A DNA stretch of 64,000 bases. Source: Terrabacter sp. Root181 (GTDB lineage Bacteria > Actinomycetota > Actinomycetes > Actinomycetales > Dermatophilaceae). The notes below the pieces were generated by a model that did not search any database, was not told where the DNA came from, and worked only from the letters and a program-made list of their open reading frames with translations. Below, piece after piece: positions 911 through 61,027 of the stretch. Each line of letters starts with the position of its first letter. The first letter of the stretch is position 1. The stretch covers positions 62,001 to 126,000 of the forward strand of contig NZ_LMHU01000009.1 of NCBI RefSeq assembly GCF_001428505.1, written 5' to 3'. Made by a program: the position numbers and the translations under genes.

Positions 911-1036
911 GGGCACGCCCTCGGGGGCCGTATGCCGTCTCGAGCGTAGCCGGGACGTCGTGCACCCACGCTCCTATGCTGGGAAGCAGGCTGCGGCCGT
1001 CCGTCTGCCAACGTCGTGGCCACCCGAGGTGCCGCC

Positions 1037-1729
1037 ATGCCCGACTCATTCGTCCACGATCGCGACGTCAAGCGTCTGCTCGAAATCCTCGAGGACGCCC
1101 ACGAGCTGGACGCGGACGACCTGTTCTATGCATCCGTCCTCGACGAGATCAGCGAGCTCGTCCCAGCGGACCAGGTGACGTTCCAGGTCAATGCCTGGCA
1201 TCGAGGCTTCGGCTCGCTCGTCGAGGTCTCGTCAGGCCAACGTGACCAGTACTCCATCCAGGTCGAGGACATCGCGAACGACCCCCTGTTCGGGCCCGAC
1301 GGATGCGGTGCCCTGTCGGCGGTCCACGGCTACACGGGGGTGACCTGCGAGACCGATGCCGGCTCGACCGGTCCGGTTCACGAGCTCATCGCCTTCATGT
1401 CGCCGCTCGGTGAGTTCGACCGCCGCTCGCTGTTCTTCCGCCACGGCGGACCCGTCTTCTCGGACCGTGAGCAGGACCTCCTGCGGCTGGCCCGCCCTCA
1501 CCTCGCCGAGCTGCACCTGCGCCGGGTCTCGGAGCAGCGCGGGGCGCCGCGCCTGACCACCCGGCAGTGGGCCATCATGCGCCTCGTGGCCACCGGCGCG
1601 ACCAACGCGCAGGTGGCGCACCAGATGGGCATCGCCGAGGGAACGGTGCGCAAGCACCTCGAGAACGTCTTCGTCCGGCTCGAGGTCTCGAGCCGGATGG
1701 AGGCCGTGAACATGGTGTTCCCGCACTGA
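1037..1729 (+). CDS. LuxR-family transcriptional regulator
   Basis: A 230-residue regulator. The last 60 residues form a LuxR-type helix-turn-helix (LTTRQWAIMRLVATG, then NAQVAHQMGIAEGTVRKHL), the usual four-helix DNA-binding domain. The first 160 residues look like a GAF/PAS-like sensory domain with no receiver aspartate, so this is not a two-component response regulator. I chose the ATG at 1037 because GAGG lies seven bases upstream; an in-frame GTG at 1016 would add seven residues. It stands alone between citA and the small minus-strand gene at 1800-2081, and its target and ligand are not evident. Confidence 0.8.
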   Translation: MPDSFVHDRDVKRLLEILEDAHELDADDLFYASVLDEISELVPADQVTFQVNAWHRGFGSLVEVSSGQRDQYSIQVEDIANDPLFGPDGCGALSAVHGYTGVTCETDAGSTGPVHELIAFMSPLGEFDRRSLFFRHGGPVFSDREQDLLRLARPHLAELHLRRVSEQRGAPRLTTRQWAIMRLVATGATNAQVAHQMGIAEGTVRKHLENVFVRLEVSSRMEAVNMVFPH

Positions 1730-1799
1730 GAGGACGGCACGACCGGGCGATCGGCGATGTCCGGGGCAGCGGGCGCCGGACCGCTGCCCCCACCGACGA

Positions 1800-3740: not shown

Positions 3741-5081
3741 ATGGTCCGCATCGTCCGCGCAGGCACCACCGCGCGCCGGGTCGCTGCAGCCGTGCCGGTC
3801 ATCGCCCTGGCCACGGCCGGCATCGCGTTCGCCGCCACCCGCGGCACCGACACCGTCACCCCGACGTCGGCGATCACCGTGCCCGACAAGGCCATCACCG
3901 ACGGCAGCCCGCTCTACCCGCAGGCCGGTCCCGCGCCGGCGCCGATGCAGCTGCCCCCGATCTACCAGACGTTCACCGAGGACTACGCCCGAGTGGACGT
4001 CCGGGCGGCGTCGCGCGGTGCCATCTCGGCCATCGACTCTCTCGCCCCGGTCCGTTTGGACGCCAACGGCATACCGGCGGTGGCCGTCACGGCCTACCAG
4101 CGCGCGGCCGGCGTGCTCGGCAGCATCAAGCCCGGGTGCGGCATCGACTGGGCGGTGCTCGGCGCCATCGGTCGGGTCGAGAGCAACCACGCACGCTTCG
4201 GTGGCAACGTCCTCGACGCGAGCGGCATCGCCCGCCCGGGCATCATCGGCATCCCGCTCGACGGCTCGCGCGGGACAGCCCGCATCACCGACACCGACGG
4301 CGGGGCCCTCGACCGCGACGCCGTCTTCGACCGCGCCGTCGGCCCGATGCAGTTCATCCCGACGTCGTGGTCGATGGCCGGTCGCGACGGCGACGGTGAC
4401 GGCGTCGCCAACCCGCAGAGCCTGACCGACGCCGTCACCGGCGCGGGAGTGCTGCTGTGCTCGGGCGGTACCGACCTGCGACAGCCGGGTGCGGCCTACC
4501 GCGCCGTGCTGCGCTACAACCACTCCGACTCCTACGTGCGCACGGTCCTCTCCATCGCCGACGCGTACCGCCGCGGCGTGACCGTGGTGCCGATGAGCGC
4601 GATCCCCGCCGCCCGCCCCGCCGCCGGAAGCGGCTCGGCCACCCCCGATGGCTCGGGCTTCGCGTATGCCGGTTCGCCGGCTCCCCGTTCGACGGCTTCG
4701 CCGAGCGCACGCCCCACACCGAGCTCCTCGGCGAAGCCGTCACCCGCGCCGTCCAGCACCTCCAAGCCCTCAGCCTCACCGAAGCCGTCGGCACCGGCGA
4801 AGCCGAAGCCGAAGCCCGGATCCCCCGGTCTGCCGATCCCGCTGCCGTCGGTGCCCGGCGTGCCGCTCCCCTCGCTCACGGTGCCGCTCCCGTCCGTGAC
4901 GAAGCTGCCCGCGCCGACCCTGCCGGCCGAGATCGTGCGGCTGCTAGCGCTGCCGCACCTGCCGCTGCTCAGCGGCGACCCGAAGGACCTCGTCCGGGTG
5001 CTCGACCCGCTGACGGCCAAGGTCGTCTGCGTCCTCGACGCCACGGTCGTGACGTGTCCCACCGGAGGTCTGCTCGGCTGA
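3741..5081 (+). CDS. Secreted lytic murein transglycosylase (MltB/SLT_2-like)
   Basis: Cleaves the glycan strands of peptidoglycan outside the cell. 446 residues, starting at the ATG at 3741 with AGGAG five bases upstream. Order: signal peptide (about 1-35, hydrophobic core AAAVPVIALATAGIAFAA); lytic transglycosylase domain (about 110-290) with the catalytic glutamate in GRVESNHARFGG at residue 147; the diagnostic GPMQFIPTSW and YNHSDSYVRTVL segments; then a Pro/Ser/Lys-rich stretch (about 300-370), probably disordered or wall-spanning; then a Pro/Leu-rich C-terminal part with two cysteines (VVCVLDATVVTCP) that could form a disulfide. Its tail is longer than usual. Rpf-like wall remodelling is possible but not shown. 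Confidence 0.85.
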   Translation: MVRIVRAGTTARRVAAAVPVIALATAGIAFAATRGTDTVTPTSAITVPDKAITDGSPLYPQAGPAPAPMQLPPIYQTFTEDYARVDVRAASRGAISAIDSLAPVRLDANGIPAVAVTAYQRAAGVLGSIKPGCGIDWAVLGAIGRVESNHARFGGNVLDASGIARPGIIGIPLDGSRGTARITDTDGGALDRDAVFDRAVGPMQFIPTSWSMAGRDGDGDGVANPQSLTDAVTGAGVLLCSGGTDLRQPGAAYRAVLRYNHSDSYVRTVLSIADAYRRGVTVVPMSAIPAARPAAGSGSATPDGSGFAYAGSPAPRSTASPSARPTPSSSAKPSPAPSSTSKPSASPKPSAPAKPKPKPGSPGLPIPLPSVPGVPLPSLTVPLPSVTKLPAPTLPAEIVRLLALPHLPLLSGDPKDLVRVLDPLTAKVVCVLDATVVTCPTGGLLG

Positions 5082-7802: not shown

Positions 7803-7858
7803 ACGGCATACGTTCTCGGGCGTTAGGCCGAGCGGACCGCCTGGTGCGGCAGCGTCGC

Positions 7859-9681: not shown

Positions 9682-9711
9682 GACCCGGTCGCGCCCAGGG
9701 GCGGCAGCGGA

Positions 9712-9732
9712 CCACCCGGGTATGCCGGGTGG
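9712..9732. terminator. Convergent terminator hairpin with GTATG loop
   Basis: CCACCCGG (9712-9719) pairs with CCGGGTGG (9725-9732) around a GTATG loop; outer GGAC/GTCC can extend it. It lies between the convergent DUF2530 and DUF3027 genes. The loop and first stem bases form the overrepresented octamer GTATGCCG. Confidence 0.75.
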
Positions 9733-9754
9733 CCGTCCCGTGGTCGGGCGACTG

Positions 9755-10720
9755 TCAGTCGGTGACGGGGTCGTCCGAGCCGTGCGACTCCTCGGCGGGC
9801 GCCTCGGCCGGCTTCTCGTCCAGCTCGGCTGCCGGCAGCTCGCCCGGCTCGTCGGCCGACGGCTCGTCGGCCGACGGCTCGTCGACCGACTGCTCGTCGA
9901 CCGACTGCTCGTCGACCGACTGCTCGTTGGTGGCCGTCTCGTCCGTGACCGTGCCGGCCTGGGCCGCGCGCTCCGCCGGCTCGACGTCGACGGCGAACTC
10001 GTCGACGATCGGCTCGCCGATCGGCGGCGGCTCGGGGTGGTCCATGTCGGTCTCGGAGTGGGCCCCGCAGCCGTGGTCGAGCGAGACGACCCGGCCGTCG
10101 GAGGGGCTCCACTCGTTGGCGCAGACCCCGAAGGTCGCACGCAGCGCGCCCGCCATCGGCAGGAAGTAGCCGCACGTCGTGCAGCGCTCGGTCGCCTTGG
10201 TGGCGATCTCGGCCGTCGGACCGTTGTCGCCGGCGTACCACCGGCTCGCGGCGACCTCGCGACCCTCGGCCGACAGGACGCGGGGACGACCGAGTCCGAG
10301 CTCGAAGAAGGCCATCTGGTCGACGTCCTCCTCGCCCGTGGCCTCGAAACCGGCCTCGAGGTTGGGGTCGTCGTGACGGAAGGGCAGCACGTCGCCGGCA
10401 CCGAGGTCGCCGGGAGCGAGCCGGTCGGCATACGGCAGCCACTCGGGAGCCAGGACGGCGTCGGGACCGGGCAGCAGGTTGGTCTCGCAGACCGTCGCCA
10501 CCTTGGCGCGCGACACCCGGGCGACGCTGACGCCCCAGCGCCAGCCGCGGTAGCCCGGCGAGGTGCACTCGAACCAGTGCATGCCGAGGCGCTCCTCGAG
10601 CAGGTCCATGCCGAGGTGCGCGCCGACGGTTGCGGGCTCGGCGACCTCCTCGAGGACGCTGCGGGCGAGGTCGGACGCGGCCAGCAGCACGGCGTCCGTC
10701 TTGGGGGCGGTGACGGTCAT
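9755..10720 (-). CDS. DUF3027 domain protein with repetitive acidic tail
   Basis: 321 residues. The N-terminal 240 residues match the actinobacterial DUF3027 family: a conserved block around GMHWFECTSPGYRGWRWGVSVAR, then a likely zinc-binding element with RCTTCGYF and further cysteines in FGVCANEW and DHGCGAH. The tail (about 250-321) is acidic and contains five-residue repeats of SVDEQ and SADEP type encoded by a 15-bp tandem repeat (9846-9920). The start ATG at 10720 lies four bases after the stop of the cold-shock gene, so the two form an operon. The function is unknown; pairing with an RNA/DNA-binding protein suggests a nucleic-acid role. Confidence 0.8.
   Translation of the reverse strand: MTVTAPKTDAVLLAASDLARSVLEEVAEPATVGAHLGMDLLEERLGMHWFECTSPGYRGWRWGVSVARVSRAKVATVCETNLLPGPDAVLAPEWLPYADRLAPGDLGAGDVLPFRHDDPNLEAGFEATGEEDVDQMAFFELGLGRPRVLSAEGREVAASRWYAGDNGPTAEIATKATERCTTCGYFLPMAGALRATFGVCANEWSPSDGRVVSLDHGCGAHSETDMDHPEPPPIGEPIVDEFAVDVEPAERAAQAGTVTDETATNEQSVDEQSVDEQSVDEPSADEPSADEPGELPAAELDEKPAEAPAEESHGSDDPVTD
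9846..9920. repeat. 15-bp in-frame tandem repeat (five units) in the DUF3027 gene
   Basis: Five consecutive 15-bp units, variants of GGCTCGTCGGCCGAC and TGCTCGTCGACCGAC, encode SADEP and SVDEQ blocks on the minus strand. A sixth, degenerate unit follows. Because the unit length is a multiple of three, copy-number change would lengthen or shorten the acidic tail without a frameshift. Confidence 0.85.
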
Positions 10721-11276: not shown

Positions 11277-11753
11277 ATGCCCACGCCCCTGCACCTCGAG
11301 TCGTCCCGCGCCGTGCCCGTCGAGGTCGGCGACGCGTACGACCGCCTGCTCCCCCACCCGCTCACCGACCTCATGTCGCGGCGCTACGGGCTGCTCCCAC
11401 CGATCCGGGAGGTGCGCGACCAGGGCGGACCGTGGGGCGAGGTGGGGCAGACCCGGACCATCGCCCTGGCCGACGGCGGCACGATGCGCGAGCGCCTGAC
11501 CGAGGTCGTGCGGCCCGAGCGCTTCGACTACGTCCTCACCGACTTCACGGGGGCGTTCAGGCCCCTCGTGTCGCACGTCGACGGCCGGTGGGCCTTCGCG
11601 CCCGAGGGCACGGGCGTGCGCGTGACGTGGAGCTGGACGTTGCACCCGACGAGCACGTATGCCGCCCGCGTCCTGCCGCTCGTCGGCCGGATGTGGCAGG
11701 GCTACGCGCGACAGGCCCTCGAGCAGACGTCGGACGTGCTGCTCGGCCGCTGA
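11277..11753 (+). CDS. SRPBCC / polyketide-cyclase-like protein
   Basis: 158 residues with the pattern of the START/SRPBCC fold: an N-terminal strand with SRAVPVEVGDAYDRLLPHPL, a central VGQTRTIALADGGTMRERLTEV, VLTDFTGAFRPLVSHVDGRWAFAP and GTGVRVTWSWTLHP strands, and a long C-terminal helix. Such proteins bind hydrophobic ligands in a cleft; none can be named here. Single gene, divergent from the cold-shock operon. Confidence 0.65.
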   Translation: MPTPLHLESSRAVPVEVGDAYDRLLPHPLTDLMSRRYGLLPPIREVRDQGGPWGEVGQTRTIALADGGTMRERLTEVVRPERFDYVLTDFTGAFRPLVSHVDGRWAFAPEGTGVRVTWSWTLHPTSTYAARVLPLVGRMWQGYARQALEQTSDVLLGR

Positions 11754-12812: not shown

Positions 12813-15230
12813 ATGGCCACCCCGAGCCGGAGCCTCGCCGACGACATCCGCGGCCGGGGCGACGCAGAGCTCATCGACCTCGTGCTCGCGCGCCCGGATC
12901 TCGCGCGCCCCGCGCCGGCCGACCTGACGAGCCTCGCCGCCCGGGCGGGCACCCGGGCCAGCGTGCAGCGCGCCGTCGAGGCGCTCGACCGTGGCCACCT
13001 CCAGGTGCTCGAGGCCGTCGTCGTCGCGGGCGACGCCGCCGAGCGCAGCGTGCTGCTGCACCTGCTCGGCACCGACGACGCCGGGACGGTCGACGCCATC
13101 GTGCAGGACCTCTGGCGCTCGGCGCTGGTCTGGCGCGGCGTCGACGGCGACCACGTCGTGCGCACGGTGCCCGAGGTGCTCGGCACGGCGGTTGCCGGCC
13201 TGGGGGCGCCGATGCGCGAGCTGCGCCCCTCGTCGCCGCCCGAGCACGCCGACCCCGACCGCATCCGGGCGACAGTCGCCGAGGCGCCCGACGACTCGCG
13301 CGCCATGCTCGAGCGGATGACGTGGGGGCCCGCCTTCGGCGTCCTGCCCGCCGCCGCCCCGGGTCGCACGACAGCCCGCTGGCTGCTCGAGCACCACCTG
13401 CTCGTCCCCGTGTCGACCGACCGCGTCGCGCTGCCCCGCGAGGTCGGGCTCGTGCTGCGCGAGGGCCGGCTGCACCGGTCGACCGAGCTGACCCCGCCCG
13501 ACATCGAGGCCCGTCCCGTGTCGCTCGTCGACGCGGCCGCCGGCGGTGCCGCCAGCGAGTGCCTGACGCACGTCGACGAGCTCGCCGCCGCGTGGGGCGC
13601 CGACCCGCCCCGGGTGCTGCGCGCCGGCGGCCTGTCGGTCCGAGACCTCCGCGTCACCCAGATGTCCCTCGACCTCGACCCCGAGCACACCGCCTTCGTC
13701 GTCGAGCTCGCGTATGCCGCCGGGCTGGTCGCCGACGACGGCGAGGTCGTGCCGGTGTGGGCTCCCACGTCGGAGATCGACGAGTGGAGCTCGAGCGAGG
13801 CCGGGCACCGCTGGGCGACCTTGGCCGTGGCCTGGCTCGGGTCGACCCGGGCCCCGCACCTCGTGGGGCGACGTGGCACCGGCACCGGGCCGGCCAATGC
13901 GCTGGGCCCCGACGTCCAGTGGCCGGCGATCCGTGCGATCCGCCGCGAGGTGCTGCGAGAGCTCGCCTCGCTCGAGCCGGGCAGCGCGCCGGACCACGCC
14001 TCCCTGCGCGAGCGCCTGGCGTGGCGGCGGCCGAACCGGTCCGCTGCCGTGCTCGACGAGGCCGTCGAGGCGGTGCTGCGCGAGTCCGAGTGGCTCGGGG
14101 TCACCGGTCGCGGGGCCCTGTCCGAGGCCGGCCGCGCCCTCGTCGCCCCGCTCCTCCCCCTCCTCCCCGCGGTTCGAGGTGATCGCGCCACCCAGGCCGG
14201 TGGCGGGAACACCTCGAACGGCAAGCGCGCCGCCCGGGGTCGAGGTGATCGCGGGAGCGGCTCCGGTGGCGGCATCACCTCGACCGAGCAGACGCCGCCG
14301 GAGGCGGGAGCCGTGGCCGAGGGCGTCGCCGCGGCGATGTCGGCGCACCTGCCCTCCCCCGTCGACCACATCCTCGTCCAGGCCGACCTCACCGCCGTCG
14401 CCCCCGGGCCGCTCGTCGGCGGTCTCGGGTCGTTCATGCGCCTCGCCGCCGACGTCGAGTCCCGCGGCGGTGCCACGGTCTACCGCTTCACCCCCGAGTC
14501 GGTGCGCCGGGCGCTCGACGCGGGGTGGACCGCGGCCGACTTCACCGAGACGGTGCGCCGGTCGAGCCGCACGCCGGTCCCGCAGCCGCTCGAGTACCTC
14601 GTCGCCGACGTCGCCCGCAAGCACGGCCAGACACGCATCGGCGGCGCCGCAGCCTACATTCGCTCCGACGACGAGGCGGTCCTCGACACGATGCTCGCGT
14701 CCCGCGACCTCACTCCGCTGCGGCTCCGGCGTCTCGCGCCCACCGTGCTCGTGTCGTCGGCAGACCCCCGCGTCCTCGTCGACCTGTTGCGCGACAACGG
14801 TTTTGCACCCGTGCACGAGGGGCAGGACGGCACTGTCGTCCACGCCGAGACGCCTCGCCGGAGGGCCGGTTCACGCCGCCGCGGCCCCGGCCCGATGGTC
14901 TCGCCCGTCGACCGGCCCTACACGCAGACGCTCGTCGACGGGCTGCGCGCTGCCGAGGCGACGGCCGACCAGCGCCGCGTCGAGGACGAGACCCGTCCTG
15001 GTCCACGCATCCTGGCGATGGACCCGGTCGTGACGCTGTCGTTGCTGCGTGACGCGGTCGCCGACCGGCACGGCGTGTGGATCGGCTACTCCGACGGCCA
15101 CGGGGCCACGAGCCGCCACCTCATCCACCCCCAGAAGGTCGAGGGCGGACGGGTGCGGGCCACCGACGAGTCCGGCCACGAGAAGTCCTTCTCGGTGCAC
15201 CGCATCACCGGCGCGACGCTCGAGAGCTGA
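12813..15230 (+). CDS. Helicase-associated (XPB/Ssl2-like N-terminal) domain protein
   Basis: 805 residues of the actinobacterial family usually found next to the XPB helicase (the Rv0862c type, from memory). No Walker motifs are present, so it is not itself a helicase. The N-terminal half is predicted winged-helix and helical; the C-terminal part (about 510-805) resembles the helicase_C_3 / WYL-like module, including HILVQADLTAVAPGPL, YRFTPESVRRALDAGWTA and a terminal IGYSDGHGATSRHLIHPQKVEGG strand set. Residues about 453-495 are a low-complexity Gly/Arg/Ser insert encoded by two DNA hairpins (14173-14284). A role as XPB partner in DNA repair is an inference from gene neighbourhood. Confidence 0.75.
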   Translation: MATPSRSLADDIRGRGDAELIDLVLARPDLARPAPADLTSLAARAGTRASVQRAVEALDRGHLQVLEAVVVAGDAAERSVLLHLLGTDDAGTVDAIVQDLWRSALVWRGVDGDHVVRTVPEVLGTAVAGLGAPMRELRPSSPPEHADPDRIRATVAEAPDDSRAMLERMTWGPAFGVLPAAAPGRTTARWLLEHHLLVPVSTDRVALPREVGLVLREGRLHRSTELTPPDIEARPVSLVDAAAGGAASECLTHVDELAAAWGADPPRVLRAGGLSVRDLRVTQMSLDLDPEHTAFVVELAYAAGLVADDGEVVPVWAPTSEIDEWSSSEAGHRWATLAVAWLGSTRAPHLVGRRGTGTGPANALGPDVQWPAIRAIRREVLRELASLEPGSAPDHASLRERLAWRRPNRSAAVLDEAVEAVLRESEWLGVTGRGALSEAGRALVAPLLPLLPAVRGDRATQAGGGNTSNGKRAARGRGDRGSGSGGGITSTEQTPPEAGAVAEGVAAAMSAHLPSPVDHILVQADLTAVAPGPLVGGLGSFMRLAADVESRGGATVYRFTPESVRRALDAGWTAADFTETVRRSSRTPVPQPLEYLVADVARKHGQTRIGGAAAYIRSDDEAVLDTMLASRDLTPLRLRRLAPTVLVSSADPRVLVDLLRDNGFAPVHEGQDGTVVHAETPRRRAGSRRRGPGPMVSPVDRPYTQTLVDGLRAAEATADQRRVEDETRPGPRILAMDPVVTLSLLRDAVADRHGVWIGYSDGHGATSRHLIHPQKVEGGRVRATDESGHEKSFSVHRITGATLES
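14173..14284. repeat. Two 46-bp hairpins inside the helicase-associated gene
   Basis: Hairpin 1: 14173-14192 pairs with 14199-14218 in 18 of 20 positions (TTCGAGGTGATCGCGCCACC versus its complement). Hairpin 2: GTCGAGGTGAT from 14239 pairs with ATCACCTCGAC ending 14284. Their starts are 66 bases apart. They encode a Gly/Arg/Ser linker that looks foreign to the flanking protein, as expected for a mobile palindromic element inserted in a tolerant spot. Confidence 0.8.
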
Positions 15231-15239
15231 GCAGCCTCG

Positions 15240-15611
15240 GTGGGCAACGACATCCGCGGAGGCCACCGGCCGGCATACGTGCTCCATGACCACCGGAAGC
15301 CGCGGCCGCACTTCGACCTGCGGCTCGAGGAGGACGGCGTCCTGCGATCGTGGGCGGTGCCCAAGGGGCTGCCGACGACGAGCCGGCACGACCGCCTCGC
15401 CGTCGCGGTCGACGACCACGCCATGGACCACCTCGACTACACCGACGAGCACAAGTCGGTCGCCGACACCGGGTGGTGGGAGGAGGAGTCGCGTGACGAC
15501 CACCGGATCGTCTTCGTGCTCCACGGGCAGGACAGCTCGCGCCGCTACGCCCTGATCCGAACCGACCGCGACTGGCTGCTGCACCTCACCAAGGACCAGC
15601 CCCGGCCCTGA
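15240..15611 (+). CDS. Stand-alone LigD-type 3'-phosphoesterase domain protein
   Basis: 123 residues matching the phosphoesterase module of bacterial LigD, which trims 3'-phosphates and ribonucleotides at DNA ends during non-homologous end joining. The core is intact: HDHRKPRPHFDLRLEEDG (His16, His18, His24, Asp26, Arg28), LRSWAVPKG, and VAVDDHAMDHLDY with a second histidine at 60. No ligase or polymerase domain is attached. It is shorter than the roughly 160-residue module and lacks the usual N-terminal extension. It starts nine bases after the helicase-associated gene with a GTG, so the two are probably co-transcribed. Confidence 0.8.
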   Translation: MGNDIRGGHRPAYVLHDHRKPRPHFDLRLEEDGVLRSWAVPKGLPTTSRHDRLAVAVDDHAMDHLDYTDEHKSVADTGWWEEESRDDHRIVFVLHGQDSSRRYALIRTDRDWLLHLTKDQPRP

Positions 15612-23663: not shown

Positions 23664-23738
23664 GTATGCCGTCGGGCTCGCGCCCGTCCCCGCCACCACA
23701 CTCCGGTGGCCCGGACGGTCGCCGGCCCGGCGGCATAC
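23664..23738. repeat. Inverted pair of GTATGCCG octamers downstream of the protease gene
   Basis: GTATGCCG at 23664-23671 and CGGCATAC at 23731-23738 face each other 59 bases apart, with GC-rich sequence between that can fold. The pair lies between the HtrA and SDR genes and may serve as terminator. Confidence 0.55.
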
Positions 23739-43625: not shown

Positions 43626-44701
43626 CCACCGACCTGGGTATGCCGTCCCGCTCACCGGGTGCCACCGGCACCGCGGGCGTCCCGCACCTCACCGACGGCA
43701 CCGCCCTGACGAAGAAGGACTTCACGTCCGACCAGGAGGTGCGCTGGTGCCCCGGCTGCGGCGACTACGCGATCCTCGCTGCGGTGCAGGGCTTCCTGCC
43801 CGAGCTCGGCCTCAAGCGCGAGAACATCGTCTTCGTCTCGGGCATCGGGTGCAGCTCGCGCTTCCCCTACTACCTCGACACCTACGGCATGCACTCGATC
43901 CACGGCCGCGCCCCCGCCATCGCGACCGGGCTGGCCGCGACGCGCGAGGACCTCTCGGTCTGGGTCGTCACCGGTGACGGCGACGCCCTCTCGATCGGCG
44001 GCAACCACCTCATCCACGCGCTGCGCCGCAACGTCAACCTCAAGATCCTGCTCTTCAACAACGAGATCTACGGCCTGACGAAGGGGCAGTACTCCCCCAC
44101 CTCGCACGTCGGCCAGGTGACGAAGTCGACGCCGCTCGGCTCGCTCGACACGCCCTTCAACCCGGTGTCGCTCGCGCTCGGGGCCGAGGCGAGCTTCGTG
44201 GCCCGCACGATGGACTCCGACCGTCAGCACCTGACGTCGGTGCTGCGTGCCGCGGCCGAGCACCGCGGGTCGGCGCTGGTCGAGATCTACCAGAACTGCC
44301 CGATCTTCAACGACGGCGTTTTCGACGTGCTCAAGGACCGCACCGAGGCCGCCGCCCGCATCCTGCACCTCGCCGACGGCGAGGAGGTCGGCACGGCCGA
44401 GACCGTCGTCGTGCGCGACGACCGCGGGTCGCTCGACGTCGTGCCGCGGGGCGAGGCCGACCCGGCCCGCATCGTGCGCCACGACATCTCGGCGACCGAC
44501 CCGTCGGCGGCGTTCGCCCTCTCGCGGCTCGACAGCCCCGACCTCGGCCACGTGCCGATGGGGATCTTCCGCAACGTGCAGCGCCCGACCTACGACGACT
44601 CGCTGCGCGAGCAGATCGCCTCGGCCCGCACGGGCGAGGTCACCGATGCCGACATCGACGCCCTGCTCGCCGGTCGGGACACCTGGACCGTGGGGGCGTG
44701 A
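43622..44701 (+). CDS. korB: 2-oxoacid:ferredoxin oxidoreductase, beta subunit
   Basis: 359 residues, the thiamine-diphosphate and Fe-S subunit. TPP/Mg site GDGDALSIGGNHLIHALRRNVNLKILLFNN. Four cysteines for the [4Fe-4S] cluster: Cys43, Cys46 (WCPGCGDY), Cys77 (GIGCSSR) and Cys226 (YQNCPIFND). The extended C-terminal region (about 230-359) is typical of the actinobacterial long form. The GTG overlaps korA, and the next gene (rarD) overlaps its stop. Confidence 0.93.
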   Translation: MTTDLGMPSRSPGATGTAGVPHLTDGTALTKKDFTSDQEVRWCPGCGDYAILAAVQGFLPELGLKRENIVFVSGIGCSSRFPYYLDTYGMHSIHGRAPAIATGLAATREDLSVWVVTGDGDALSIGGNHLIHALRRNVNLKILLFNNEIYGLTKGQYSPTSHVGQVTKSTPLGSLDTPFNPVSLALGAEASFVARTMDSDRQHLTSVLRAAAEHRGSALVEIYQNCPIFNDGVFDVLKDRTEAAARILHLADGEEVGTAETVVVRDDRGSLDVVPRGEADPARIVRHDISATDPSAAFALSRLDSPDLGHVPMGIFRNVQRPTYDDSLREQIASARTGEVTDADIDALLAGRDTWTVGA

Positions 44702-45699
44702 CCGCCCGCGAGACCGTCTCGTCCGTCGCGCCCACCGGGCCCGACACGCGTGCAGCCGGATCGAGCGCGCCGCACGGCGAGGTCGGGCGGGGCACCCTCC
44801 TCGGCTTCGCGGCATACGGCCTCTGGGGGCTCTTCCCGCTCTACTTCGACGCGCTCAAGCCCGCCGGACCGTGGGAGATCCTCGCCCACCGCATCCTCTG
44901 GACCCTGCTCTTCTGCGTCGTCGTGCTGCTCGTCATGCGCGACCTCGGCTGGATCCGCCCGCTCCTGCGACGGCCGCGGCTGCTCGCTGGCACGGCGGTC
45001 GCGGCCGTGCTCATCGCGGTCAACTGGGTCGTCTACGTCGCGGCCGTCACCTCGGGCAACACCTCCGAGGCGGCCCTCGGATACTTCCTCAACCCCCTCG
45101 TCACCGTGGCGCTGGGCGTCGTCGTGCTCGGCGAGCGCCTGCGCGTGCTCCAGTGGGTGGCCGTCGGGATCGGTGTCGTGGCCGGTGTCTACCTCGGGGT
45201 CTCGGGTGGACGCATACCCTGGGTGGCGCTGACCCTCGCGGTGTCCTTCGCGCTCTACGGCCTGACGAAGAAGAAGGTCGGCGTCAGCCTCGACGCGATC
45301 CACGGCCTCACCGTCGAGACCGTCGTGCTCGCCCCGGTCGCCGTCGTGCTGCTGCTCGTCGTCGGCGCGCAGGGCGGCCTCGAGTTCGGCCTGCACGGAG
45401 GCGTGCACACGTCGCTGCTCGTCCTCTCCGGACTGGTCACCGCGGTGCCGCTGCTCTGCTTCGCCGCCGCCGCCCGCCGCATCCCTCTCGTCACGATCGG
45501 GCTCATCCAGTTCATCACCCCGGTCATGCAGCTGCTCTGCGCGGTGGTCCTGCTCGACGAGCACATGCCGTCCGAGCGGTGGATCGGCTTCGGCATCGTC
45601 TGGCTCGCGCTCATCGTGCTCACGGTCGACTCGCTCGTCAGCCTGCGGGGCGCCCGCGCCGCACGACGCGACCTGCCGGTCGACGACTGCCCGCGCTGA
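44698..45699 (+). CDS. rarD: RarD-like EamA transporter
   Basis: 333 residues, ten helices in two EamA halves. RarD features: FAAYGLWGLFPLYFDALKP at the start, EILAHRILWT, YVAAVTSGNTSEAALGYFLNPLVTVALGVVVLGERL, and the C-terminal IQFITPVMQLLCAVVLLDE. Substrate unknown (chloramphenicol sensitivity was reported for the E. coli relative). It overlaps the korB stop as GTGA, so it is transcribed with korAB. Confidence 0.85.
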   Translation: MTARETVSSVAPTGPDTRAAGSSAPHGEVGRGTLLGFAAYGLWGLFPLYFDALKPAGPWEILAHRILWTLLFCVVVLLVMRDLGWIRPLLRRPRLLAGTAVAAVLIAVNWVVYVAAVTSGNTSEAALGYFLNPLVTVALGVVVLGERLRVLQWVAVGIGVVAGVYLGVSGGRIPWVALTLAVSFALYGLTKKKVGVSLDAIHGLTVETVVLAPVAVVLLLVVGAQGGLEFGLHGGVHTSLLVLSGLVTAVPLLCFAAAARRIPLVTIGLIQFITPVMQLLCAVVLLDEHMPSERWIGFGIVWLALIVLTVDSLVSLRGARAARRDLPVDDCPR

Positions 45700-45776: not shown

Positions 45777-47339
45777 GTGAGCGACATCGTCCTCGGCTCC
45801 CGCACCGGTCGGTTCGTCATCGCGGCCGCCGTGCTCGGCTCGGGCATGGCCCTGCTCGACGGGACCGTCGTCAACGTCGCCCTCGTGCGGATCGGCGAGG
45901 AGCTCGGCGCGAGCCTCGCCGAGCTGCAGTGGATCACCAACGGCTACCTGCTCGCGCTCGCCTCGCTCATCCTGCTGGGCGGCTCGCTCGGTGACCGCTT
46001 CGGGCGGCGCCGCGTCTTCGTCGTCGGGGTCGTGTGGTTCACGGTCGCCTCCGCCGCGTGCGGCCTCGCCCAGTCGCCCGTCCAGCTCATCGTCGGGCGG
46101 GTGCTGCAGGGCGTCGGTGGCGCCCTGCTGACGCCCGGCAGCCTGTCGATGATCCAGGCCTCGTTCCGTCCCGACGACCGCGGCAAGGCCATCGGCACGT
46201 GGTCGGGACTCGGCGGCATCGCCTCCGCCCTCGGGCCGTTCGTCGGTGGATGGCTGGTGCAGTACGCCAGCTGGCGCTGGGCCTTCCTCGTCAACCTGCC
46301 GCTCGGCGCCGCGACGGTGTGGATCGCCCAGCTGCACGTCCCCGAGACGCGCGACGAGAAGGCCGACCACCGGTTCGACGTGGCCGGCGCCGTGCTGGCG
46401 ACGCTCGCCCTGGGCACGACGACCTTCGCCCTGATCCAGCACGAGCCACTGGGTGCGGTGGCCGCCACCGGCGTCGGCCTGCTCGGCCTCGCCATCGGCG
46501 CGGCCTTCGTCGTCGTCGAGCGTCGCACCTCGCACCCGATGGTGCCGCCGGCCCTCTTCGCGTCCCGGCAGTTCAGCGCGGCCAACGCGATGACGCTGCT
46601 CGTGTATGCCGCCCTCGGCGCGGTCTTCTTCTTCCTCACCCTCCAGCTCCAGACGGTCCTCGGCTACGGTCCGCTGCTCGCCGGCATGGCCTCGCTCCCG
46701 GTGACCGTCCTCATGCTGCTCCTCGCCGCCCGGGGCGGAGAGCTCGCGTCACGCATCGGACCGCGCCTGCCGATGACGGTCGGGCCGGTCGTCTGCGGCG
46801 TCGGCGCCCTGCTCCTGTCGGGCGTCGACGAGGGCTCGACCTACTGGACCGGCGTACTGCCCGGCATCTCCGTCTTCGGCCTCGGGCTCACGCTGCTCGT
46901 CGCACCCCTGACGGCCACCGTCCTCGCCGCCGCACCGGACCGCTACGCCGGGGTCGCCAGCGGGGTCAACAACGCCGTCGCCCGGGCGGGCAGCCTCCTC
47001 GCCGTCGCCGCACTACCGGCTGTCGTGGGCCTCAGCGGCTCGGACTACGCCGTCCCCGAGGCCTTCTCGTCGGCCTACCGGACGGCGATGCTCATCTGTG
47101 CCGGACTGCTCGCTGCCGGCGGCGTCGTGTCGTGGCTGCTCATCCGCAACCCCTCCCGCGAGCCGTCGGCCGCCGCCGCGACCGGTGCCGAGCGGGAGGG
47201 CCGCGCGGTCGCAGCGGGCACCACACGGCATACGCGAACGGCACCCGCCGGGTGGTCGTGCGCGGGATCGGAGGGATGCCCGGGCACGAGCCACCACGCC
47301 GGCGACCTGCCCGCGGGCGAGGTTCCGGCCGGGCGCTGA
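45777..47339 (+). CDS. DHA2-family MFS drug transporter (EmrB/QacA-like)
   Basis: 520 residues, 14 helices. It has the DHA2 signature LDGTVVNVALVRIGEELGASLAELQWITNGYLLALA, motif A GDRFGRRRVFV, and antiporter motif C-like GLGGIASALGPFVGGWL. The last 60 residues are hydrophilic, basic and Gly/Arg/Ala-rich, longer than usual and of uncertain meaning. Proton-driven efflux of drugs or metabolites. The GTG at 45777 follows the rarD gene after a tandem repeat. Confidence 0.88.
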   Translation: MSDIVLGSRTGRFVIAAAVLGSGMALLDGTVVNVALVRIGEELGASLAELQWITNGYLLALASLILLGGSLGDRFGRRRVFVVGVVWFTVASAACGLAQSPVQLIVGRVLQGVGGALLTPGSLSMIQASFRPDDRGKAIGTWSGLGGIASALGPFVGGWLVQYASWRWAFLVNLPLGAATVWIAQLHVPETRDEKADHRFDVAGAVLATLALGTTTFALIQHEPLGAVAATGVGLLGLAIGAAFVVVERRTSHPMVPPALFASRQFSAANAMTLLVYAALGAVFFFLTLQLQTVLGYGPLLAGMASLPVTVLMLLLAARGGELASRIGPRLPMTVGPVVCGVGALLLSGVDEGSTYWTGVLPGISVFGLGLTLLVAPLTATVLAAAPDRYAGVASGVNNAVARAGSLLAVAALPAVVGLSGSDYAVPEAFSSAYRTAMLICAGLLAAGGVVSWLLIRNPSREPSAAAATGAEREGRAVAAGTTRHTRTAPAGWSCAGSEGCPGTSHHAGDLPAGEVPAGR

Positions 47340-50695: not shown

Positions 50696-50726
50696 CCGGC
50701 CGCCCACGCCGAGGACGTATGCCGCC

Positions 50727-52051: not shown

Positions 52052-52072
52052 CGCGGCACACGGCATACGGGC

Positions 52073-53408: not shown

Positions 53409-54590
53409 TCAGCCAAAACACTGCCCTTCCCCACGATAGGTCGCGGCCCGTCCGACGACCCGGTCGCCTCCGTCGCTGCTGACGAGCGCGAACTCCGTGA
53501 AGCGCTCGGCCAGCTCCCCCGCCTTGGCGTGCCGGAACCATATCCGATCACCCAGTGAGAGCCGGTCGGCCCCGGCTCCCTCGAGGGGCGTCTGGACCTC
53601 ACCGGCGCCCTCCCGTCGGATCAGCGCGAGGTCGTGCTCGGGCAGCGGGCTCGGGACCCGGGACCACCCGGGCGGACCGGACGCGACGTAGCCGCCGCCG
53701 TATGCCGTCACCATCCCCTCGCCGGGCCGGCGCACGACCGGGGCGGCGAAGTAGGCGGCCGGCCGCAGGGAGAGGGCGTCGTAGCCGTCGAAGAGCGTGG
53801 GTGCGAAGAGCCCCGACCCGGCGGCGAGCTCGGTCAGGGCGGGGTCGAGGTGGGTGACGTGGAGGCTGCCGGTGCCGCCGCCGTTGACGACCTCGAGGTC
53901 GGCGAGCGAGCGCGCGGCAGCGACGACCTCGGCGCGGCGGGTGCGCAGCTCGGCGTCCGAGACCTTCTTCATCCGGCGCACGACCGGCGACGAGTCGGGC
54001 AGGCCCGCGATCTGGGCGTCGTAGAACATCAGCCCGGCGACGACGAGACCGCGCTCCTGGGCGCGCCGGACGACCGTCTCCACGTCCGCGGGGGTCCGGG
54101 TCGGCGAGCGGCGAACTCCCAGGTGGGCCGGGCCGACCCGAAGCGACGCGTCGACGTCGATCGCCACGCGCAGCCCCTCGTGACCGGGCACCTCGCGGGC
54201 GATGAAGTCGACGTGCTCGACGCTGTCGATCATGACGATGACGGCCCGGGTCAGCGCCGGGTCGGCGGCGAGCTCGGCCAGGGCCGGGACGTCGACGCTC
54301 GGGTAGGCGACGAGGACGTCGTCGTGGCCGGCACGCGCCCACCACAGCCCCTCGCGCACGGCGTAGCACATGAGGCCCTGGAAGCCGTCGCGCCCGAGCG
54401 CCCGCTCGATGAGGGGCCGGCTGCGCAGCGACTTGGTCGCGATCCGGATCGGGAGCCCGGCGGCCAGGTCGACGAGCGTGGCGGCGTTCGCGTCGAAGGC
54501 GTCGAGGTCGACGACGGCGAGCGGACCGGGGAGGTCGGCGGTCGCCGCCGAGAGGCGCGCCGCGACCGGCGGCGACAGGCGACGATGCAT
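53409..54590 (-). CDS. Alanine-racemase-fold amino acid deaminase/aldolase
   Basis: 393 residues. An alanine-racemase-like TIM barrel with the PLP lysine in IRIATKSLRSRP (about 50), and the metal-dependent D-threonine-aldolase/D-serine-dehydratase-like C-terminal domain (RHAKAGELAERFTEFALV). Likely acts on a D-amino acid or a D-3-hydroxy acid. It lies 13 bases upstream of the sugar-lactone oxidase; a functional link between them is possible but not evident. ATG at 54590. Confidence 0.8.
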   Translation of the reverse strand: MHRRLSPPVAARLSAATADLPGPLAVVDLDAFDANAATLVDLAAGLPIRIATKSLRSRPLIERALGRDGFQGLMCYAVREGLWWARAGHDDVLVAYPSVDVPALAELAADPALTRAVIVMIDSVEHVDFIAREVPGHEGLRVAIDVDASLRVGPAHLGVRRSPTRTPADVETVVRRAQERGLVVAGLMFYDAQIAGLPDSSPVVRRMKKVSDAELRTRRAEVVAAARSLADLEVVNGGGTGSLHVTHLDPALTELAAGSGLFAPTLFDGYDALSLRPAAYFAAPVVRRPGEGMVTAYGGGYVASGPPGWSRVPSPLPEHDLALIRREGAGEVQTPLEGAGADRLSLGDRIWFRHAKAGELAERFTEFALVSSDGGDRVVGRAATYRGEGQCFG

Positions 54591-54767: not shown

Positions 54768-55787
54768 TCAGCCGACGCGGTCGACGACGGAGAGGGCGAG
54801 GGCCTGCAGGGCCGCCTTCGCGTCGCTGTCGGGCAGCGGGTCGAGCAGGGCCTGCGCCTCGCGGGCGACGGCATACGTCTCGTCGCGCGCCAGCGCGAGG
54901 GCCGGATGGGCCCGCAGGAGCCCCAGCGCCTCGGCCAGGGCGGCGTCGTCGGTCGACAGGTCGGCGTCGAGCAGCTCGAGCAGACGCACGTCCGAGGCGT
55001 CGTCGCGGTCGGCCATGGCCCGGAAGCGCAGCACGGCGAGCGTGTCGACACCCTCGCGCAGGTCGGTGCCGGGGATCTTGCCGCTGTCGTCGGCGTCGGA
55101 CGCGATGTCGATGAGGTCGTCGGCGAGCTGGAAGGCCACGCCGACCTTCTCGCCGTAGGAGCGCATGGTCTCGACCGCCGCGGGCGACCCACCGCTGAAC
55201 ATGACGCCGTAGCGCCCGGCCGTCGCGATGAGCACGCCGGTCTTGTCGGCGAGGACACCGAGGTAGTAGTCGACGGGATCGACACCCTCGGGGCACGCCC
55301 GGTCGTCGCGGATCTGACCGGAGCACAGCCGCACGAACGTCTGCGCCTGGATGAGCACGGCCTCGGCGCCGAGACCGGCGACGAGCTCGGACGCCTTGCC
55401 GAAGAGCAGGTCGCCGACGAGGATCGCCGTCGAGTTGTCGTAGGCGGCGTTGACCGACGCGACCCCGCGGCGCACGCTCGCCTCGTCCATGACGTCGTCG
55501 TGGTAGAGCGAGGCGAGGTGGGTCAGCTCGACGCCGGCGGCGGCACTGACGACGTCGTCGTTGATGCCCTCACCGAGCTCGGCCGCGAGGAGGGTCAGCA
55601 GCGGCCGGAACCGCTTGCCGCCCGCCTCGACGAGGTGCCCCGAGGCCCGGGCGATGAACGGGTCGTCGTGGTCGACGACCTGCGTCAGCAGCGCGTCGAC
55701 CCGGGCCAGCCCGTCACGCAGGCGTGCCGACAGGTCCGCGGTGGCCCCGGGGATCCCGAGGACCGGCGGGGTGGCGTGTGTCGTCAT
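54768..55787 (-). CDS. Polyprenyl diphosphate synthase (menaquinone side chain, probable)
   Basis: 339 residues, all-alpha isoprenyl synthase. First aspartate-rich motif DDVMD at 97-101 with YH before it (typical of long-chain enzymes) and second motif DDLID at 223-227. Produces the C40-C45 isoprenoid used for menaquinone in actinobacteria; the exact chain length is not predictable. It lies 34 bases beyond the nuoN stop, on the same strand as the conventional nuo operon, so it may be read with it. Confidence 0.88.
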   Translation of the reverse strand: MTTHATPPVLGIPGATADLSARLRDGLARVDALLTQVVDHDDPFIARASGHLVEAGGKRFRPLLTLLAAELGEGINDDVVSAAAGVELTHLASLYHDDVMDEASVRRGVASVNAAYDNSTAILVGDLLFGKASELVAGLGAEAVLIQAQTFVRLCSGQIRDDRACPEGVDPVDYYLGVLADKTGVLIATAGRYGVMFSGGSPAAVETMRSYGEKVGVAFQLADDLIDIASDADDSGKIPGTDLREGVDTLAVLRFRAMADRDDASDVRLLELLDADLSTDDAALAEALGLLRAHPALALARDETYAVAREAQALLDPLPDSDAKAALQALALSVVDRVG

Positions 55788-57435: not shown

Positions 57436-59042
57436 TTCGAGCTCCCTTCGGCCACGGTGCCGGCCGGGTTGAGGGTCGGAACGGCTTGCTGGACGTGCGC
57501 CAGGGTCTTGTCGACGGCCGGGTTGATCACGTTGAGCGCGATGTTCGGCAGGACGCCGAGCACGACGAACGCAGCGATCAGCGGTGCGGCGACGAGCTTC
57601 TCGCGCGTCGTCAGGTCACGCACGGCGGTGAGCCCGCGACGGCCGGGCTCGTCGAGCCGGTCGTGCTCGCGCTCGCCGACGAGGCCCTCGGGCTTCGGGC
57701 CGGTCATGACCCTCTTGTACATGAGCAGGATATAGAGCGCGGCGAGGATGATGCCGGTCGTCGCGATGACGGTGGCCACCGGCTGAGTCGGGAAGCTGCC
57801 CACGAGCACGGTGAACTCGGAGACGAAGGTCGCCAGACCCGGGAGGCCGAGGCCGGAGAGGCCCGCGACGAGGAAGATTCCGGCCAGGGCAGGCGTGATC
57901 CGCTGCCAGCCGCCGTAGTCGGGGATCCGCTTGCTGCCGCGACGGCGTACGAGCATGGCCGCGAAGAGGAAGAGCGCCGCCGTCGAGAAGCCGTGGTTGA
58001 CCATGTAGAGCGTGGAGCCCGCGTGGCCGACGTTGGTGAAGGCGAAGATGCCCAGCACGATGAAGCCGAAGTGGCTCACCGACGTGTAGGACACGAGGCG
58101 CATCATGTCGGTCTGGCCGATCGCGAGCAGCGCACCGTAGATGACGGAGAGCACCGCGAGGGCCACGACGACGGGCGTCGCCCACGTGCTCGCCTCCGGG
58201 AAGAGCTGGAGGCAGAAGCGGATCATCCCGAACGTGCCGACCTTGTCGAGCACGCCGACGAGCAGCGTCGCCGTCGCGGGCGAGGACTCGGTGGCGGCGT
58301 CGGGCAGCCAGGTGTGGAACGGCACCATCGGCGCCTTCACCGCGAAGGCGAAGAAGAAGCCGACGAAGAGCAGCCGCTCGGTGGTGGGGTCGAGCGAGAG
58401 ACCGGTGAGGCGCTCGATGAGGAAGCCGTCGGTGCCGCCCGGGCCCTGCAGGTAGAGGGCGATGACGGCGACGAGCATGACGAGCCCACCGGCCAGCGAG
58501 AAGAGCAGGAACTTCATCGCGGCGTACTGCCTGCGCGGGCCGCCGAAGCGACCGATGAGGAAGTAGACCGGGATGAGCATGGCCTCGAAGAAGACGTAGA
58601 AGAGGAACACGTCGGTGGCGGCGAACACCCCGACCATGAACGTCTCGAGCACGAGGATGAGCGCGAAGTACGTCTTGACGCGCTGGCCGCCGCGGGCGCC
58701 GGCCTCCTCGGGCACGTCGTGCCAGGCCGCTAGCAGGCAGATCGGGGTCAGCACGAGCGCCATGAGGATGAGCACGAGCGCGATGCCGTCGACGCCGAGC
58801 GCGTAGCTGACACCGAACTGCGGGATCCACGAGTGCTGCTCACCGAGCTGGAACTGCGCGCTCGAGGCACGGTCGAACTGCGTCGCGGCAATGATGCCGA
58901 CGACGAGCGTGACGAGGGAGAACCCGATCGCCATCCGCTTGGCGTTCTCGGCGCTGCCCGGCACGAAGGCGACGACGAGCGCGCCCACGAGGGGGATGAG
59001 GCCGAGGATCGTCAGCCAGGGGACGGTGGACATTGCGGTCAT
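57432..59042 (-). CDS. nuoM: NADH:quinone oxidoreductase subunit M (conventional operon)
   Basis: 536 residues, proton channel. It contains FLFYVFFEAMLIPVYFLIGRFGGPRRQYAAMKFLLFSLAGG, VKAPMVPFHTWLPDAATESSPATATLLVGVLDKVG and LRF/YGALLAIGQTDMMRLVSYTSVSHFGF. ATG at 59042 overlaps the nuoL stop as ATGA. Normal length and composition. Confidence 0.94.
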   Translation of the reverse strand: MTAMSTVPWLTILGLIPLVGALVVAFVPGSAENAKRMAIGFSLVTLVVGIIAATQFDRASSAQFQLGEQHSWIPQFGVSYALGVDGIALVLILMALVLTPICLLAAWHDVPEEAGARGGQRVKTYFALILVLETFMVGVFAATDVFLFYVFFEAMLIPVYFLIGRFGGPRRQYAAMKFLLFSLAGGLVMLVAVIALYLQGPGGTDGFLIERLTGLSLDPTTERLLFVGFFFAFAVKAPMVPFHTWLPDAATESSPATATLLVGVLDKVGTFGMIRFCLQLFPEASTWATPVVVALAVLSVIYGALLAIGQTDMMRLVSYTSVSHFGFIVLGIFAFTNVGHAGSTLYMVNHGFSTAALFLFAAMLVRRRGSKRIPDYGGWQRITPALAGIFLVAGLSGLGLPGLATFVSEFTVLVGSFPTQPVATVIATTGIILAALYILLMYKRVMTGPKPEGLVGEREHDRLDEPGRRGLTAVRDLTTREKLVAAPLIAAFVVLGVLPNIALNVINPAVDKTLAHVQQAVPTLNPAGTVAEGSSK

Positions 59043-61027
59043 CAGGACATCACCCAAAGAGCACCGAGGATGGCGACGACACCAGCGAGCATCGTCAGGG
59101 CATAGGAGCGCGCGAAGCCGTTCTGCAGCTTGCGCAGTCGGGAGCTCGTCCCGCCGACGAGGGCGGCGAGGCCACCGGCCGCACCGTCCACGCCCTTGCT
59201 GTCGGCGAAGACGAGCGAGCGCGTGAGGTGGATGCCGGGTCGCATGAGGAGGGCCTCGTTGACCTGGTCCTGGTAGAGGTCCTTGCGCGCGGCCTGCGTG
59301 AGCAGGGAACCGGCAGGCGCCGTGACCGGCACGTCGTCTCGCCAGTAGCGCAGCCACGCGAGGGCGGCGCCAGCGGCGACGAGGACGAGGGTCAGGGCCA
59401 TGAGGACCGGCACGGGGATGACCGGGTGGGCACCCTCGGGCTCGGCGCCGGTGACCGGCTCGAGCCACGTGGTGAACATGCCCGTCGGGCCGAGGATGAG
59501 ACCGAGGAAGGCCGAGCCCACCGCGAGGACGATCATCGGGACGGTCATGAGCCTGCCCGACTCGTGCGGGTGCACGTCGTCGGTCCAGCGCTTCTTGCCG
59601 TGGAAGGTCATGAAGAACAGACGCGACATGTAGAAGGCCGTGATGCCGGCGCCGATGAGGGCGGCCATGCCGAAGACCCATGGGCGCCAGCCCTCGCCGA
59701 TGAAGGCGGCCTCGATGATCTTGTCCTTGGACCAGAAGCCCGAGAACGGCGGCACCCCGAGGATGGCGAGCCAGCCGACGGCGAACGTCGCCCACGTGAT
59801 CTTCATGGCACCGGACAGGCCGCCGAAGCGGCGCATGTCGACCTGGTCGTTCATGCCGTGCATGACCGAGCCGGCCCCGAGGAACATGCCGGCCTTGAAG
59901 AAGCCGTGCATGAGCAGGTGGAAGATCGCGAAGGCGTAGCCGACCGGGCCGAGGCCCGCGGCGAGCATCATGTAGCCGATCTGGCTCATCGTCGAGGCCG
60001 CGAGGGCCTTCTTGATGTCGTCCTTCGCGCACCCGACGATCGCGCCGAAGAGCAGCGTGATGGCGCCGACGATGACGACGACGAGCTGCGCCGTGGGCGC
60101 CGCCTCGAAGATCGGCGCCGAGCGCACGACGAGGTAGACGCCGGCCGTGACCATGGTCGCGGCGTGGATCAGCGCCGACACCGGGGTCGGGCCGGCCATG
60201 GCGTCACCGAGCCAGCTCTGGAGCGGGAACTGCGCCGACTTGCCGCAGGCACCGAGCAGCAGCATCAGGCCGATGGCCGTCATGAAGCCCTCGTTGGCGT
60301 TGCTGCCGGCCTCACCGAGCACCGTCGCGAAGTCGACGGCGCCGAAGTGGAAGAACATCACCATGATCGCGATGGACAGACCGAAGTCACCGACGCGGTT
60401 GGCGACGAACGCCTTGTTGGCCGCGGTCGCGTAGGCCGGGTTGTAGTTCCAGAAGCCGATGAGCAGGTAGCTCGCGAGGCCCACGCCCTCCCAGCCGACG
60501 TAGAGCAGCAGGTAGGAGTTGGCGAGGACGAGCAGGAGCATCGCCGCGACGAAGAGGTTGAGGTAGGCGAAGAAGCGCCGCCGGTCGGGGTCGTGCTCCA
60601 TGTACCCGATGGAGTACACGTGGATGAGCGAGCCGACGAAGGTGATGAGCAGCACGAAGACCATGGACAGCTGGTCGACGAGCAGCCCCGCACTCACCTT
60701 GAACGACCCGGCAGCGATCCAGTCGAACAGGTCGATGCCGACCGCGCGGTCCTCGGCGCCACGGCCGAGCATCGCGAGGAAGACGAGTGCGCCGACGACG
60801 AAGGCACCCCACGAGAGGGCGGTCGCGAGCACGGGCCCGAACTTGTCGGTGCGGCGGCCGCCGAGGAGGAGCACGGCGGCACCGAGCAGCGGCAGCGCGA
60901 CGAGCAGCCACGCGTATGCCGTCACCCCGGTGGCGGCGTGCGCCTCACCTTCGTGCGTGGCGAGGCCCGCGGCATACGTGCTCAGCGTGCTCGACGAGCT
61001 CGTGAGCGTCTGGACGAGAGTTCCCAT
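59042..61027 (-). CDS. nuoL: NADH:quinone oxidoreductase subunit L (conventional operon)
   Basis: 661 residues, including the long C-terminal helix that runs along the membrane arm. [60 protein letters not shown] and [18 protein letters not shown] are typical. Starts 16 bases after the nuoK stop, the only non-overlapping junction in this stretch. Confidence 0.94.

Follow-up and report, generated by a model that had tools for sequence, protein, structure and literature searches.

The octamer GTATGCCG is spread over the whole genome of Terrabacter sp. Root181 as a word that is kept by something that reads it, and other words take its place in particular lineages of the same family. It was noticed in a stretch of 64,000 nucleotides (contig NZ_LMHU01000009.1, positions 62,001 to 126,000; hereafter the window), in which the original prediction had counted 34 exact matches (18 on the forward and 16 on the reverse strand), and all of these were confirmed at their coordinates. 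Here we surveyed the number, placement, retention and replacement of the word in this genome, in 186 genomes of the family Dermatophilaceae/Intrasporangiaceae and in a sample of the order. By analogy with known systems we lean, with slightly more confidence than doubt, towards a self-recognition word of the DNA-uptake type that would be read by a sequence-specific protein. The wider proposition is that Gram-positive Dermatophilaceae carry an uptake self-recognition code with at least four dialects (GTATGCCG, GGATGCCG, CGAAGGGG and GGTCTACG), which would turn over within genera and in which GTATGCCG takes up about half of the permissive Tyr-Ala slots; on this our judgement is evenly balanced.

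Copy number and placement of the octamer

In 100 shuffles of the window that keep its dinucleotides, GTATGCCG occurred 1.13 times on average and 4 times at most. The Root181 genome (4.94 Mb in 12 contigs) holds 2231 copies, 1135 forward and 1096 reverse, which is about one per 2.2 kb, against 250 copies (124 and 126 per strand) of the octamer with its letters reversed, and the claim of a genome-wide signal is supported by these counts. A sample of 464 kb, made of the window and C1:1-400000 of the same genome, contains 232 copies against 11.8 expected from a third-order Markov model, an expectation which is itself inflated by the word, and the count is therefore not near the Markov expectation. 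When the 8-mers of this sample were ranked by z-score, the overlapping TATGCCGT came first and GTATGCCG second, and the top 9-mer (GTATGCCGT) and the top 10-mer (CGTATGCCGT) are extensions of GTATGCCG. The base before the word is mildly biased towards C and the one after it towards T, and beyond these positions there is mainly codon periodicity.

Genes were called by a simple script (coding share 0.82-0.96) and all counts inside and outside genes carry the error of these calls. Between genes of the sample (42 kb) 64 copies were found where 0.81 are expected, and in a genome of another genus (G110) the corresponding numbers are 58 and 0.76. The 24 single-base variants of the word, summed over the same intergenic DNA of Root181, stay near expectation (36 vs 29.7), the largest of them having 9 copies vs 4.5 expected and 3 vs 0.4. 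The enrichment is real, all eight bases of the word are needed, its flanks are soft and both strands carry it.

Predicted genes contain 162 of the 232 copies of the sample, in both orientations as the original prediction had stated. On the coding strand 99 of these 162 encode Tyr-Ala, and 43 on the other strand encode Ala-Tyr; the word fills 98 of 174 slots in which the protein permits the Tyr-Ala form and 43 of the 142 slots open to Ala-Tyr. The copies had also been said to force rare codons, and this holds for TAT (99 of its 202 occurrences in the sample lie inside the word) and ATA (10 of 22) but hardly for GCA (44 of 886).

The density of the word per kb in Root181 is 0.42 in genes, 0.77 between divergent genes (11 copies), 1.77 between tandem genes (35 copies) and 2.8 between convergent genes (16 copies), and G110 gave 0.51, 0.69, 1.84 and 2.26 in the same order. 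Pairs of copies less than 60 bp apart are inverted in 9 of 11 cases in Root181, 17 of 19 in G110, 4 of 4 in G096, 3 of 3 in G122 and 5 of 5 in G194, which makes 38 of 42 for the five genomes pooled, several of them with perfect or near-perfect stems. The nine window copies that had been called intergenic are exactly the nine outside our gene calls. Their reported closeness to gene ends and terminators stands as far as the word is densest between convergent genes, and it fails for much of the folding: of the eight intergenic stretches folded, one gave an outstanding hairpin from an inverted pair (z -7.75), one a good hairpin (z -2.62) and one has a copy beside a hairpin (z -2.17), while the other five were no better than shuffles.

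Retention and replacement between genomes

At least 400 copies of GTATGCCG were found in 106 of the 186 family genomes and fewer in the other 80, and all nine Terrabacter genomes are high. The order sample consisted of 396 genomes, 34 of them from the family; none of the remaining 362, which come from 19 other families, exceeds 180 copies. The word can be missing from a single member of a genus, as in G114 (19 copies vs 3681 and 1062 in two congeners), G045 (37 copies vs 1251-1660 in four congeners) and G140 (50 copies in a genus otherwise at 394 or more).

Retention of sites was measured at the com locus, about 19 kb per genome, with other octamers having three A or T as control; the nine Terrabacter query loci are related, and hence the retention cells are non-independent. 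For the eight sites of the Root181 com locus, 49 of 53 aligned cells are intact in the eight other Terrabacter genomes, which are 81-91% identical. When all Terrabacter loci were compared against each other, 275 of 352 cells were kept in genes (control 0.43) and 129 of 145 outside genes (control 0.285), so that the sites are conserved among close relatives in noncoding DNA as well. Two genomes of Humibacillus xanthopallidus, in which the word is present (79% identity), kept 31 of 41 and 45 of 68 (control 0.26-0.28), and Intrasporangium oryzae, also with the word (78%), kept 13 of 28 (control 0.24). Intrasporangium flavum, without the word at 80% identity, kept 0 of 35 (control 0.27), and a Humibacillus which uses GGATGCCG (76%) kept 1 of 30. 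At 73-74% identity the genomes with another word or none kept 0 of 31 (Nostocoides) and 0 of 21 and 0 of 22 (Janibacter). Among genomes with the same word at 74-76% identity, 10 of 29 were kept in I. chromatireducens, 4 of 23 in a metagenome-assembled Intrasporangium genome (control 0.20), 8 of 28 in Knoellia koreensis, 7 of 28 in Pedococcus cremeus (control 0.18) and 10 of 28 in Phycicoccus. Retention follows the word in use by the lineage, and this speaks for a reason that is genome-wide rather than local.

Where GTATGCCG is missing, some of the sampled genomes were enriched in other octamers and the remaining samples gave no clear signal. Every genome of g51 (16 genomes) and of g58 (3 genomes) holds 1198-3180 copies of CGAAGGGG and no more than 41 of GTATGCCG, and the rest of the 186 genomes reach 396 copies of CGAAGGGG at the most. 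The word CGAAGGGG was found at 8 of 8 loci named Janibacter (2 to 16 copies) and GTATGCCG at none of them, and g51 is therefore probably Janibacter. The word GGATGCCG, one base different from GTATGCCG, has 2099-4480 copies in seven genomes and at most 1336 in the others. Within the genus g41 two genomes use mostly GGATGCCG (4480 and 3619 copies, with 361 and 288 of GTATGCCG), and two have both words in quantity (2195 and 1217 in G070, 2099 and 1189 in G071), which looks like a switch in progress. A switch site by site was considered and rejected, as of ten Terrabacter sites aligned to G194 at other loci none was kept and one was GGATGCCG. The word GGTCTACG has 1183 copies in G045 only and at most 454 elsewhere, and the four congeners of G045 use GTATGCCG. 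In G194, G096 and G122 the dialect words have a density of 3.0-4.6 per kb outside genes vs 0.75-0.80 in genes; GGTCTACG is the least secure dialect because in G045 it is not much denser outside genes (0.53 per kb) than in genes (0.42).

Further candidate words were met during the survey. In G113 (L078-L079) CGATGSGG has 63 copies in 40 kb, inside and outside genes, and may be a further dialect. At L043-L046 (g33) GTATGGCG and GTATGACG are enriched beside GTATGCCG, and at L164 (Flexivirga) GTATGVCG has 31 copies vs 16 of GTATGCCG, as if position 6 were relaxed in both. The words GTACGGCG (G114) and GTACGCCG (G050, G051 and G120; in G050 as the overlapping GGCGTACG) are not claimed as dialects because they combine common codons (TAC with GCC or GGC). 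Three words occur exclusively outside genes, GAGTAGGTG (14 of 14 in G199, L082-L083), CCGATATC (10 of 10 in G050, L092-L093) and GTGAATCCG (8 of 8 in G045, L064-L068); these look like short intergenic repeats of another kind and were rejected as dialects.

Possible readers of the word

The closest match in placement is given by the DNA uptake sequences (DUS) of Neisseriaceae, which also come as lineage dialects and in inverted pairs able to form stem-loops; like GTATGCCG they are abundant, short and non-palindromic, with a dialect for each lineage and copies within and between genes (PMC3630211). One-base variants are scarce in both systems: 1474 perfect DUS and 682 one-base variants were counted, 72% of the latter at five peripheral positions, which gives about 0.13 variants per perfect copy at the seven inner positions (from PMC3868556), and the intergenic excess for GTATGCCG is about 0.1. 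Unlike the DUS, GTATGCCG lacks the CTG core, its host is an actinobacterium and one of its replacement words, CGAAGGGG, is unrelated. The word is not a Neisseriaceae DUS proper, as there is no CTG in it and PilM was not found in Root181; no search was made for ComP. The Neisseria DUS shares ATGCCGTC with GTATGCCGTC, the word and its flanks in the window, and this overlap is probably a coincidence because the CTG core is missing.

The uptake signal sequence of Pasteurellaceae is a genome-wide word on both strands, and GTATGCCG is likewise distributed, with a different sequence and a different host. To our knowledge no uptake words are known in Gram-positives. They have been described for Pasteurellaceae and Neisseriaceae (PMC7811141), and our searches of open-licence literature with fixed words gave no report of GTATGCCG or of uptake sequences in actinobacteria, a text search for GTATGCCG having unrelated titles among the matches listed. 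The likeness to DUS which the original prediction had drawn was strengthened by the dialects, the inverted pairs in stem-loops, the placement at gene ends and the lack of polarity (see below). The uptake reading also draws on the hundreds to thousands of copies in about equal numbers on the two strands, the lack of any excess in the sampled genomes of other families, the retention that follows the word in use, the share of Tyr-Ala slots filled and the gap in a low-GC stretch of C1 with a transposase (see below).

If GTATGCCG is an uptake word, its protein reader would be part of the natural-transformation machinery, possibly a receptor that belongs to a pilus of the Tad/Flp type or to the ComEA/ComEC path. 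Fragments bearing the word would be taken up preferentially, and their recombination would spread the word and maintain it at all places that the protein sequence and the gene ends allow; a changed preference of the receptor could then let a new word replace the old one. In Micrococcus luteus, another actinobacterium, homologues of comEA/comEC are present and transformation depends on Flp pili (PMC6370729). The gene comEC (PF03772) was found in 180 of the 186 family genomes; in Root181 it is open and adjoins the gene of a ComEA-like protein that combines an SLBB domain with helix-hairpin-helix. Three T2SSE-type ATPases of Root181 score over the family cut-off, the first in a locus with Flp pilins, the second in a locus with small DUF4244 proteins and weak, sub-cut-off TadE and Tad matches, and the third matching profile positions 5-236 of 370 only.

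Several results weigh against the uptake reading. The comEC gene is present in nearly all genomes without GTATGCCG and has an uninterrupted frame at 13 of the 14 loci checked, whether the word is present or not, and PilM, the mark of type IVa pili, occurs in only 7 of the 186 genomes, Root181 not among them. The number of T2SSE-type ATPases shows no association with the word by eye, with up to ten candidates scored per genome. In a comparison of the Tad-type loci of ten genomes, for which all candidates were scored, the Flp-type ATPase of Root181 has high-scoring counterparts in 3 of the 9 other genomes and lacks one in the word-rich G096, G110, G122 and G194. Among the Tad/Flp loci and T2SSE ATPases no receptor was found that tracks the word. 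None of the four words is abundant in about 55 of the 186 genomes, and in some of them the count of GTATGCCG is intermediate (293 in G041, 295 in G060 and 322 in G062). Retention in the same-word genomes at 74-76% identity runs from slightly below the control (0.17-0.20) to about twice that level, and narrow literature searches gave no report of transformation in these genera. All the evidence is compatible with another genome-wide reader as well; that the word is read at DNA uptake, and not simply by something, is a step which we infer.

Some candidates for the reader or for the cause of word loss were set aside. A receptor on type IVa pili, as in Neisseria, was rejected on the rarity of PilM. 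As a discriminator of the word comEC was rejected on its wide presence, and its loss is not a general cause of word loss because only G114 of the 14 loci shows a change of frame. In this genome (L047), the only one of its genus to have lost the word, comEC lies in two frames, which may come from a real frameshift or from a sequencing error. ATPases scoring like that of the second Root181 locus are present in 10 of 10 genomes, with or without the word; by blastp at the fetched loci the second-locus ATPase was found in 7 of the 9 other genomes and not in G110 or G101, perhaps through missing gene calls. A Tad-type ATPase at C8:359492-360166 of Root181 (L199:9079-10380) matches its profile in part and has neighbours without counterparts at other loci, and in the majority of the other genomes examined the same ATPase aligns with the greater part of the profile (not G096 or G101; loci L202, L204, L206, L208, L211, L213 and L215). 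The Root181 copy looks interrupted by an island.

The strongest rival, which we consider possible though rather unlikely, is a word for chromosome organisation or methylation, comparable to the highly iterated palindrome (HIP) words of cyanobacteria such as HIP1, read by a nucleoid protein or an orphan methyltransferase and kept for folding, repair or marking. HIP words are octamers in heavy excess, and in certain lineages different words take their place (PMC4390886); the strong retention of sites and the high share of filled slots would fit selection on a present function. HIP words are, however, palindromic and linked to methyltransferases, whereas GTATGCCG and three dialects are non-palindromic, and neither the excess between convergent genes nor the inverted stem-loop pairs are obviously expected of such a word.

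A recombination signal resembling Chi, read by a helicase-nuclease of the RecBCD, AddAB or AdnAB type, had been named as an alternative in the original prediction and appears improbable. The length and density of the word, its non-palindromic form and its absence from an island of C1 are in its favour: the largest gap without GTATGCCG in the 400 kb of C1 (28.4 kb, C1:312141-340561, L024-L026) has a GC content of 0.623 vs 0.710, encodes an ISL3-type transposase and QueC, and is probably an acquired island. The Chi of E. coli is also an octamer with one copy per few kb, but it is polarised (PMC8022716), and GTATGCCG is not. When the 400 kb of C1 around the inferred origin were split at 100 kb, 97 copies were leading and 101 lagging, and splits at 72, 110, 117 and 195 kb gave 97-99 vs 99-101; no strand bias relative to the origin was found there. 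The single-contig genome G110, split by GC skew, has 146 vs 115 copies and the larger share stays within 56% for every placement tried, which is a slight strand bias at most. RecC (PF04257) was found in 89 of the 186 genomes and in one of the nine Terrabacter, Root181 being among the eight without it; AddAB and AdnAB were not searched. A Chi of the RecBCD type was set aside because of the lack of polarity and because RecC was not found in Root181.

The origin used for these splits was located by sequence patterns. DnaA-like boxes lie at C1 103-112 kb, with others at 16, 72 and 195 kb, and seven parS-like sites, five of them perfect, lie at C1:110710-116805 with one more at 92562; the boxes and the parS-like cluster suggest a replication origin near C1:103-117 kb. 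A stretch of 11 kb in this region (C1:108583-119851) has no copy of GTATGCCG, which may be chance.

A role in transcription terminators or in another RNA-level element, which the gene-end preference and the stem-loops would suit, is very improbable and largely refuted because most copies of the sample lie inside predicted genes in both orientations, and five of the eight folded stretches behave like shuffles. The least credible reading, in which the word has no function and stems from codon usage, from mutational bias or from a dispersed repeat, could explain the many copies in the Tyr-Ala frame and is refuted by the intergenic excess, the use of rare rather than common codons, a flank preference of about one base on each side plus codon periodicity, and the retention of noncoding sites.

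Copies in the window and meaning of the word

The copies of the window are given below as exact matches of GTATGCCG with their position relative to the gene calls; same and opposite strand are relative to the predicted gene.

Table 1. Exact copies of GTATGCCG in the window and their surroundings
Position	Strand	Context
930..937	+	intergenic, 20 bp after gene end
4067..4074	-	in predicted gene, opposite strand
4664..4671	+	in predicted gene, same strand
7804..7811	-	intergenic, downstream of gene end, beside strong hairpin (7775-7835, z -2.17)
9720..9727	+	intergenic, between convergent genes; loop and part of stem of hairpin (9700-9745, z -2.62)
10426..10433	-	in predicted gene, same strand
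11657..11664	+	in predicted gene, same strand
13712..13719	+	in predicted gene, same strand
15271..15278	-	in predicted gene, opposite strand
16925..16932	+	in predicted gene, same strand
17849..17856	+	in predicted gene, same strand
22490..22497	+	in predicted gene, same strand
23664..23671	+	intergenic, left arm of inverted pair closing long stem-loop (23655-23745, z -7.75)
23731..23738	-	intergenic, right arm of inverted pair with 23664 (stem-loop z -7.75)
25481..25488	+	intergenic, hairpin no stronger than shuffles
26721..26728	-	in predicted gene, same strand
29357..29364	+	in predicted gene, opposite strand
29891..29898	-	in predicted gene, same strand
33641..33648	-	in predicted gene, same strand
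35045..35052	+	in predicted gene, opposite strand; inverted pair with 35146
35146..35153	-	in predicted gene, same strand; inverted pair with 35045
38756..38763	+	intergenic, downstream of gene end
39742..39749	-	in predicted gene, same strand
40484..40491	-	in predicted gene, same strand
43638..43645	+	in predicted gene, same strand
44810..44817	-	in predicted gene, opposite strand
46604..46611	+	in predicted gene, same strand
47226..47233	-	in predicted gene, opposite strand
50717..50724	+	intergenic, between convergent genes
52061..52068	-	intergenic, few bases after gene end
53700..53707	+	in predicted gene, opposite strand
54869..54876	-	in predicted gene, same strand
60914..60921	+	in predicted gene, opposite strand; inverted pair with 60970
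60970..60977	-	in predicted gene, same strand; inverted pair with 60914

If GTATGCCG is an uptake word it would be new for Gram-positives, and natural transformation would be predicted in many soil and wastewater actinobacteria. The genomes with two words would then be a natural experiment on the switching of uptake specificity, and the right word added to donor DNA could open these genera to genetic work. Should some other protein be the reader, the word is still a genome-wide signal with dialects, which shapes codon choice to the degree that about half of the TAT codons of the sample lie inside it.

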